From Anaerolinea sp. (GTDB taxonomy: Bacteria; Chloroflexota; Anaerolineae; Anaerolineales; Anaerolineaceae), in contig DYEC01000004.1 in NCBI GenBank assembly GCA_020725865.1, positions 62,001-126,000 of the forward strand: DNA of 64,000 nucleotides, read 5' to 3'. A model generated the notes under the pieces. That model saw nothing but the letters and a program-made list of their open reading frames with translations. It was not told the DNA's origin and ran no database searches. A program made the position numbers and the translations under genes. Positions within the stretch are counted from its first letter, which is position 1. Each line of letters opens with the position of its first letter. This document shows positions 45,539-47,742 of the stretch, piece by piece.

Positions 45539-45567
45539 TTGCCTATTTAATTGATCACAGGTATAAT
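45539..45567 (+). promoter_or_regulatory. Promoter of tRNA-Val, probably also of the T-box-thrS transcript
   Basis: TTGCCT (45539-45544), exact 17-bp spacer, TATAAT (45562-45567). The start point would be near 45574, six bases before the tRNA. No other good promoter is seen before the T-box leader. Confidence 0.75.
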
Positions 45568-45579
45568 AAAAAACAACCC

Positions 45580-45653
45580 GGGCGGTTAGCTCAGTTGGTT
45601 AGAGCGTTGCGTTGACATCGCAAAGGCCGTAGGTTCGAGTCCTATACCGCCCA
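45580..45653 (+). tRNA. tRNA-Val (anticodon GAC)
   Basis: A 74-nt cloverleaf. The acceptor stem GGGCGGT/ACCGCCC is perfect, D stem GCTC/GAGC, anticodon stem TTGCG/CGCAA with loop TTGACAT (anticodon GAC at 45614-45616, reads GUC/GUU Val codons), T stem GTAGG/CCTAT with loop TTCGAGT. The discriminator base is A. CCA is not encoded (next bases CTT). Confidence 0.95.
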
Positions 45654-45660
45654 CTTTAAA

Positions 45661-45914
45661 AACGCGAGGACCAGGACGAGTAACCGACTTGTATTCCGAC
45701 AGAGAGAGGGAATGGTACGTTGAGAGTTCCCTTCGGCAATCGGGCGGTGAAAACCACCTGCGAGCGTAACCCTGAACAGGGTATTTACCCTTAGTATGGG
45801 AAACGGTTGACCCCGTTATCAGTCACAGGAGATGACCTACCTATTGGATGGGTCAAACTGGGTGGAACCGCGTGAGCGTACCTCTCGCCCCAGATGGCGA
45901 GAGGTAATTGGTTT
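45661..45914 (+). promoter_or_regulatory. Threonine T-box leader of thrS
   Basis: A tRNA-sensing leader. Stem I shows the AGAGAG motif (about 45701) and a specifier loop GAAAACCA with Thr codon ACC at 45753-45755. The T-box sequence AACTGGGTGGAACCGCG occupies 45856-45872. The terminator is a perfect 11-bp stem (45879-45889 with 45896-45906) followed by a weak T stretch. Uncharged tRNA-Thr would stabilise the antiterminator and allow thrS expression. It starts only 7 nt after tRNA-Val. Confidence 0.93.
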
Positions 45915-45963
45915 AAAAGGCATCATTGGTTATTAGGAATGGAACTTTCTTTTGGAGGCACAC

Positions 45964-47742
45964 ATGAGTAAAGAAAGGTATGAGGATACCAAACTGTTTC
46001 GTATGCGGCACTCTGCTGCGCATGTTATGGCGCAGGCAGTACTGGAAAAATTTCCGGATGCCAAATATGCGATCGGCCCCGCTATTGACGATGGGTTTTA
46101 TTATGATTTTGACCTGCCGCGCCCTTTGACACCGGAGGACCTAGAACAAATTGAAGCGCGGATGCGCTCGATCATTCGTGAGAATCATCCCTTTGTGCGG
46201 CGCGAAATTTCTGCGGACGAAGCGCGGCAGATTTTCAAAGATCAACCCTATAAATTGGAGTTGATAGAGGGTCTGGAACAGGGTGGCTTTGATGAGCATG
46301 GAGAACCACTGGCGGAGAAACCGGTGATCTCGATTTATACGCATGCCTCATTCACCGATCTCTGCCGGGGTCCTCATGTCGAGCGCACAGGCGAGATTAA
46401 CCCGGATGCCATCAAGCTGATGTCGGTGGCTGGCGCATATTGGCGTGGCGATGAACATCGCCCTATGTTGCAGAGAATTTATGGCACAGTCTGGTATACG
46501 TCTGAAGAGCTTCAGCAGTACTTATGGAAACTGGAAGAGGCGCGCAAACGCGACCATCGAAAGATTGGCAAGGAATTGGATTTATTTAGCGTTAATGATG
46601 AAGTTGGTCCCGGCTTGATCCTCTGGCATCCAAAGGGAGCTAAAGTTCGCAAGATCATTGAAGACTTTTGGATGAATGAACACGAACGTTCAGGTTATGA
46701 GTTCGTTTTTACGCCTCATATCGGACGGGCAGCGTTGTGGGAAACAAGCGGACATCTGGGTTTTTACAAGGAAAGCATGTACGCACCTGTGGATATAGAA
46801 GGTCAACAATATTATTTGAAGCCAATGAATTGCCCCTTCCACATCCACATTTATAAAAGCCAAATCCGTTCCTATCGAGATTTACCAATGCGTTTGGCTG
46901 AAAAAGGCACAGTTTATCGTTATGAGCGTTCCGGGGTGCTTCATGGATTGTTTCGCGTGCGTGGGTTTACTCAGGATGATGCTCATCACTTTTGCCGGGA
47001 AGATCAGATGCCGGAAGAGATTGATTTTGTCCTGGATTTCAGCTTGCATATTTTACATTCCTTTGGTTTTCAGGATATTAAAGCATATCTCAGTACCCGG
47101 CCGGAGAAAGCAGATGGCGAAGTAGCACGCTGGAATGCTGCAGAAGCTGCACTGGAAAACTCACTCAAGCGATCTGGGGTGCCCTACGAGGTGGATGCTG
47201 GTGGCGGCGCTTTTTATGGCCCGAAGATTGATCTTAAGGTGAATGATGCGATTGGACGTGAATGGCAGTTATCCACTATTCAGTTTGATTTCAACCTGCC
47301 AGAACGTTTCGATCTGACCTATATCGGTGAAGACGGACAACCGCATCGTCCTTATATGATTCACCGCGCGCTGTTAGGAAGTATGGAGCGTTTCTTTGGC
47401 GTTTTGATTGAACATTATGCCGGTGCTTTTCCCGTCTGGTTAATGCCGATTCAGGTGGTACTGATCCCAATCGCCGATCGTCACGTCGCATATGCTCAAA
47501 AAGTTGCTTCAGAGTTAAAGCTGGCAGGTCTGCGTGTCCGCGTTGATGACCGCGCGGAACGCATGAATGCAAAGATTCGAGATGCGCAGAATCAAAAGAT
47601 CCCCTATATGCTTGTAGTCGGTGACAAGGAAATGGAAAGCGGTCAGGTAGCTTTGCGACTACGCAGCGGTGAAAACCCGGGACCGATACCAATCGCTACT
47701 TTCCTAGAACGGGCAAAGAAAGAGATTGAAGAAAAAATTTGA
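45964..47742 (+). CDS. thrS: Threonyl-tRNA synthetase lacking the N-terminal TGS domain
   Basis: 592 residues from the ATG at 45964, with GGAGG 5-7 bp before it. The TTG frame start at 45952 overlaps that SD. Class II synthetase charging tRNA-Thr. It begins directly with the editing (N2) domain, MRHSAAHVMAQAV with the HxxxH pair, AIGPAIDDGFYYDFDL and LCRGPHV. The catalytic core follows: PMNCPFHIHIYKSQIRSYRDLPMRLAEKGTVYRYERSGVLHGLFRVRGFTQDDAHHFC, then DLKVNDAIGREWQLSTIQFDFNLPERF, with the anticodon domain at the end. The usual 60-residue TGS domain is absent. Confidence 0.97.
   Translation: MSKERYEDTKLFRMRHSAAHVMAQAVLEKFPDAKYAIGPAIDDGFYYDFDLPRPLTPEDLEQIEARMRSIIRENHPFVRREISADEARQIFKDQPYKLELIEGLEQGGFDEHGEPLAEKPVISIYTHASFTDLCRGPHVERTGEINPDAIKLMSVAGAYWRGDEHRPMLQRIYGTVWYTSEELQQYLWKLEEARKRDHRKIGKELDLFSVNDEVGPGLILWHPKGAKVRKIIEDFWMNEHERSGYEFVFTPHIGRAALWETSGHLGFYKESMYAPVDIEGQQYYLKPMNCPFHIHIYKSQIRSYRDLPMRLAEKGTVYRYERSGVLHGLFRVRGFTQDDAHHFCREDQMPEEIDFVLDFSLHILHSFGFQDIKAYLSTRPEKADGEVARWNAAEAALENSLKRSGVPYEVDAGGGAFYGPKIDLKVNDAIGREWQLSTIQFDFNLPERFDLTYIGEDGQPHRPYMIHRALLGSMERFFGVLIEHYAGAFPVWLMPIQVVLIPIADRHVAYAQKVASELKLAGLRVRVDDRAERMNAKIRDAQNQKIPYMLVVGDKEMESGQVALRLRSGENPGPIPIATFLERAKKEIEEKI

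Follow-up and report, generated by a model that had tools for sequence, protein, structure and literature searches.

Within the window, that is the whole stretch of 64,000 nucleotides that was analysed, a valine tRNA gene, a threonine T-box leader and thrS follow one another closely on the forward strand. The features of the locus are as follows, "abutting" referring to the loci of related genomes defined below.

45539..45567, + strand: sigma-70 promoter TTGCCT-17-TATAAT, which would head the shared unit; predicted start at about 45574; equivalent present in 31/31 abutting loci
45580..45653, + strand: tRNA-Val(GAC); CCA not encoded; discriminator A
45654..45663, + strand: spacer CTTTAAAAAC, from sequence
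45658..45895, + strand: T-box leader, stem I to antiterminator; RF00230, 101.8 bits
45753..45755, + strand: specifier codon ACC (Thr), from the Rfam alignment
45858..45893, + strand: antiterminator, mutually exclusive with the terminator; from the Rfam structure line and the fold
45863..45866, + strand: UGGA bulge; complementary to the UCCA end of tRNA-Thr, whose discriminator is U, but not to that of tRNA-Val, whose discriminator is A
45879..45906, + strand: terminator hairpin with an 11-pair stem and a weak U-tract; proposed to end the tRNA transcript conditionally
45964..47742, + strand: thrS; ATG start; GGAGG at 45954-45958; TIGR00418, 724.9 bits

The tRNA gene is placed at 45580-45653 by Rfam (73 bits) and at 45580-45654 by ARAGORN, and it is single copy, the sole Val(GAC) gene among the 39 tRNA matches of the genome. 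The T-box covers the full RF00230 model (1-219) and scores above its gathering score of 93, and its specifier ACC agrees with the synthetase gene downstream, thrS. The arms of the terminator and antiterminator overlap at 45879-45893, with folds of -19.8 and -12.7 kcal/mol respectively, and the terminator stem is followed by a poor U-tract, ATTGGTTTAA, at 45907-45916.

The promoter ahead of the tRNA is the only sigma-70-like promoter found in the scanned region of 1801 bases. A preliminary description of this DNA had placed it six bases before the tRNA; the promoter is indeed present, but it is the predicted start that lies 6 nt before the tRNA, the -10 hexamer ending 12 nt off. Stem I, described as beginning about 7 nt after the tRNA, is also close behind it, with the Rfam model starting 4 nt past the discriminator and the first stem I pair formed approximately 10 nt past it. 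The claim that neither a terminator nor a second promoter intervenes stands, as a scan of the stretch between tRNA-Val and the T-box found no terminator-like site and no consensus promoter. With one promoter match found in the 1801 bases against 2.5 expected in shuffles, the number of matches is not above chance, thus the significance of the promoter comes from its conserved position in relatives rather than from the match itself, and the case therefore rests on comparison.

The order of tRNA and T-box was compared in 179 thrS upstream regions, of which 130 are from genomes of the class and 49 from a family sample. The class part covers 130 of the 195 genomes in which thrS was matched, namely the best 30 and another 100 of the rows listed, with some rows close to a contig end left out, and the family part 49 further genomes of a 61-genome family sample, with the genome of the window counted once, in the class set. 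In 31 of the 179 loci a tRNA-Val(GAC) ends 8-34 nt before the stem I motif, an arrangement here termed abutting. In others tRNA-Val lies 46-60 nt (15 loci), 81-153 nt (10 loci) or farther (6 loci) from stem I; a further 69, here termed solo, possess a T-box but no tRNA, 5 run into a contig end and 43 have no T-box according to the detector, a figure that is an overcount as the detector was a regular expression that missed at least L248, whose T-box has a variant motif.

All 31 abutting loci have a strong promoter (score of 9.9 or above) ahead of the tRNA, whilst no promoter predicted to start in the spacer or where the tRNA ends scores above 7.5 in any of them. In a stretch of equal size before stem I, a promoter score of 10 or above is reached in 0/31 abutting loci compared to 47/69 solo loci (Fisher 9e-12). 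With a looser score of 8 the contrast is weak (17/31 against 55/69, p 0.016), since there is a TTGACA inside tRNA-Val itself. When the T-box terminators were tested for a run of U residues the window was among the 4/31 abutting loci that failed, the other 27/31 being better.

Loci in which tRNA and T-box are apart serve as natural experiments. The nearest relatives by ThrRS, L248 (80%) and L249 (79%), have between the same tRNA and T-box a hairpin, a recognised terminator in L248, and then a new TATAAT promoter, whereas the window carries neither at this position. L274 is abutting, yet in its close relative L275 a gene is inserted between the two, the tRNA is followed by a terminator and a new promoter precedes the T-box. 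Within the 46-60 nt class, L096 and L100, which have tRNA-Val(UAC), possess a promoter of their own, and several other loci have a hairpin without a promoter (by eye), these hairpins being read as putative leaky terminators or processing sites. Of the tRNA-Val genes that do not abut a T-box, 13/23 have their own detectable terminator, and directly upstream of the trpB-like, ileS, valS, pheS and serS T-boxes in the genome of the window there are promoter-like hexamers (by eye). Taken with the promoter counts of 31/31 and 0/31, the contrast with L248 and L249 makes a shared tRNA-Val/T-box transcript in the window very likely, and the earlier proposals that thrS is driven from the tRNA promoter and that the 5' end of the leader arises from tRNA 3' processing are likewise well supported by the related loci. 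The linkage of tRNA-Val and T-box is labile rather than fixed, with many T-boxes having no tRNA; approximately 11 changes of the abutting state are needed on a tree of 58 ThrRS proteins, and the arrangement is also found in genomes from other families and classes of the phylum.

tRNA-Val is not the only partner. When class genomes were searched with a pattern for a tRNA of any type next to such a stem I, 31/396 matched, the reversed pattern giving a handful of matches, and the 30 loci fetched comprised 24 with tRNA-Val(GAC), 3 with tRNA-Thr(CGT), 1 with tRNA-Leu(GAG) and 2 with no tRNA (L126 and L147, dismissed). In L118-L120, all of one genus, tRNA-Thr(CGT) abuts a T-box with specifier GUC that precedes valS, the mirror image of the unit in the window, and in L144 tRNA-Leu(GAG) abuts a Thr-specific T-box (ACC) followed by asd. 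A tRNA-Val and T-box precede an M20-type peptidase rather than thrS in L134 and L135 (for L134, a weak ArgE/DapE-family match). Within a phylum sample 20/400 genomes matched the tRNA-abutting pattern, with five further tRNA-Val/T-box/thrS units and one tRNA-Gly/T-box/valS unit (L298); matches dismissed were L302, a tRNA-Ser before a miaB-like frame, and L303, a tRNA-Ala before large rRNA (both by eye), along with L297, L299, L300, L304 and L307, in which no tRNA was found.

It is thus proposed, with a probability of about 0.87, that tRNA-Val(GAC), the threonine T-box and thrS are transcribed together as a single unit from the promoter of the tRNA, the T-box doubling as a conditional terminator. 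The transcription, processing and regulation of this unit would proceed as follows. RNA polymerase starting at the tRNA promoter would make tRNA-Val first and the leader second. When tRNA-Thr is charged the polymerase would stop at the T-box terminator, which would thereby serve as the terminator of the tRNA gene; when it is uncharged it would bind the leader and allow the polymerase to read on into thrS. RNase P and RNase Z would free tRNA-Val from the transcript, with the RNase Z cut, presumably after 45653, leaving a leader with only a few nucleotides ahead of stem I, much like one made from its own promoter. It is most likely that the T-box acts as conditional terminator of the tRNA gene and that the leader acquires its 5' end through processing of the tRNA 3' end. 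It had been suggested that the 5' end of the riboswitch is changed by this processing, however it would hardly be so, as the predicted start-to-stem-I distance in solo loci is 7-24 nt compared to 8-34 nt from tRNA end to stem I. Nor is there support for the suggested coupling of the valine tRNA to threonine sensing: the attenuator lies downstream of the tRNA, therefore tRNA-Val would be made whatever the T-box decides and its output should be independent of threonine. The coupling would be the reverse, with the supply of thrS following the tRNA promoter.

Any role of tRNA-Val as the molecule that is sensed is difficult to reconcile with its sequence. It mismatches the window T-box twice, with ACC facing a GAC anticodon and UGGA facing discriminator A, and this is general for the abutting loci, which have specifier ACC in 31/31 (20 by script, 11 by eye from sequence), bulge UGGA in 31/31 and a cis tRNA-Val with discriminator A in 30/31, one row being scored T by script. 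The tRNA-Thr(CGT) and tRNA-Thr(TGT) of the same genome have discriminator U and fit the UGGA; no tRNA-Thr(GGT) is found among the tRNA matches of the assembly. If not the ligand, tRNA-Val might still influence the riboswitch in cis by offering alternative pairing, given that stem I holds a second copy of its acceptor 7-mer GGGCGGT and that, with no constraints on the fold, the structure of minimum energy has the tRNA paired with the antiterminator. The repeat is present in only 1/31 abutting loci, thus is ascribed to chance, and native pairs of tRNA and leader do not fold together any better than swapped ones (p 0.25). As both recognition sites mismatch and joint folding gains nothing specific, cis tRNA-Val is rejected as the ligand, and a cis action of any kind is extremely improbable.

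A different objection is that the T-box has a hidden promoter inside the tRNA which it merely adjoins. The anticodon arm of tRNA-Val does hold a perfect TTGACA hexamer, scores inside abutting tRNAs reach 9.3, and a weak internal promoter could conceivably be present there. The -10 at the correct spacing is poor though, starts at the tRNA end or in the spacer have only the low scores given above, and L248 and L249 share the internal hexamer yet carry a separate TATAAT promoter, which makes this explanation very unlikely. Rather more weight attaches to the arrangement being a frozen accident left over from an old neighbourhood of tRNA-Val and thrS, functionally meaningless for both genes. A tRNA-Val(GAC) is found shortly upstream of thrS in 8 loci outside the phylum (L045, L054, L057, L063, L069, L079, L082 and L086, which by their record titles include Poribacteria, Neomarinimicrobiota, Verrucomicrobia, Omnitrophota and Kiritimatiellae), a raw count rather than a rate. 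A T-box match was sought at these 8 loci and none was found, pointing to a neighbourhood that predates the T-box there, and the lability of the arrangement is also in keeping with an accident. Against this, terminators or promoters appear where tRNA and T-box are apart, and unrelated tRNAs have been joined to T-boxes independently. An accident without function is therefore rather doubtful, and it is an alternative that bears on the benefit of the arrangement and not on the shared transcript, which remains the preferred reading of the window.

The genome of the window has a second unit of this type at L007:1-380, the start of contig C10, which opens inside a tRNA read as Ala(GGC) and continues with a hairpin spacer, a Leu T-box and leuS. 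Among the leuS loci fetched from the family (L351-L379), 28/29 have a same-strand tRNA-Ala upstream of the T-box, in 27 cases Ala(CGC) and Ala(GGC) together and in L374, a short contig, Ala(GGC); the remaining locus, L355, is cut by the contig end. A TTGACA/TARAAT-like promoter precedes the first tRNA (by eye), and the second abuts the T-box in about a dozen loci, L368 among them. Across the class, a pattern for a tRNA abutting the Leu stem I matched 15/396 genomes and none of the reversed controls.

In 9 of these 15 loci there is, in addition to an abutting Ala(CGC), a complete tRNA-Ala(GGC) that follows stem I and precedes the T-box sequence. Searching for a tRNA placed 25-55 nt ahead of the T-box sequence gave matches in 32/396 class genomes compared to 3 genomes with the pattern reversed, and the 30 loci fetched gave 28 with tRNA-Ala(GGC), 1 with Ala(CGC) and 1 with no tRNA (L401, dismissed, as was L418, which has no T-box match). 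The nested loci, all in other genomes of the class, are L385-L387, L389-L394 and most of L395-L424. The Rfam T-box model aligns over its full length, spanning the nested tRNA, in 9/9 and 15/16 loci, which represent 24 genomes and 13 families, with scores of 44.6-76.1 bits that are below the gathering cut-off because of the tRNA insert. The nested tRNA occupies the loop of the final helix ahead of the antiterminator, stem III in the usual naming, and the arms of this helix covary between genomes: mean pairing is 17.4 within loci and 14.2 between loci (SD 0.45; 0/500 shuffles; n=31, with L418 and some near-identical genomes included). Genes downstream of the nested T-boxes include leuS (L404, L399) and ilvE (L395). 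At L411:2191-2379 there is a group I intron match (RF00028, 54.3 bits) just past another tRNA gene at 2047-2118.

We are inclined to the view that T-boxes of the Chloroflexota are systematically built into tRNA units as conditional terminators, with synthetase supply following tRNA promoters, and that the extreme form is tRNA-Ala(GGC) inside the Leu T-box, the release of which would cut the riboswitch and leave its halves held by the conserved helix. The usual view of T-boxes is of leaders that stand alone and are transcribed from a promoter of their own, whereas those described here would belong to tRNA operons in which one RNA provides for tRNA output, its terminator and synthetase control, and RNase P and RNase Z would set the lifetime of the T-box. 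The nested tRNA-Ala poses a testable question, whether the riboswitch acts before processing destroys it or whether the helix preserves its function after the cut. In the open-licence papers searched neither co-transcription of a tRNA with a T-box nor a tRNA inside a T-box was found, and an earlier description elsewhere is possible.

The closest known counterpart to the T-box itself is the B. subtilis thrS/thrZ type (RF00230), which similarly lies before thrS and has a stem I with ACC, a UGGN matching the tRNA-Thr discriminator and a terminator/antiterminator pair, but it has its own promoter, whereas the window T-box is predicted to begin within a tRNA transcript. Co-transcription of tRNA genes with a protein gene is known from thrU-tyrU-glyT-thrT-tufB of E. 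coli, in which a tRNA promoter drives the protein gene and RNase P and RNase Z free the tRNA, as is proposed for the window; the window differs in that a tRNA-sensing riboswitch lies between and would gate the protein gene. The Leu T-box units with tRNA-Ala in Anaerolineae share the logic of tRNA, T-box and aminoacyl-tRNA synthetase, one of them at leuS in the same genome (L007), and differ in having two tRNAs, with one inside the T-box in the 24 genomes confirmed by Rfam.
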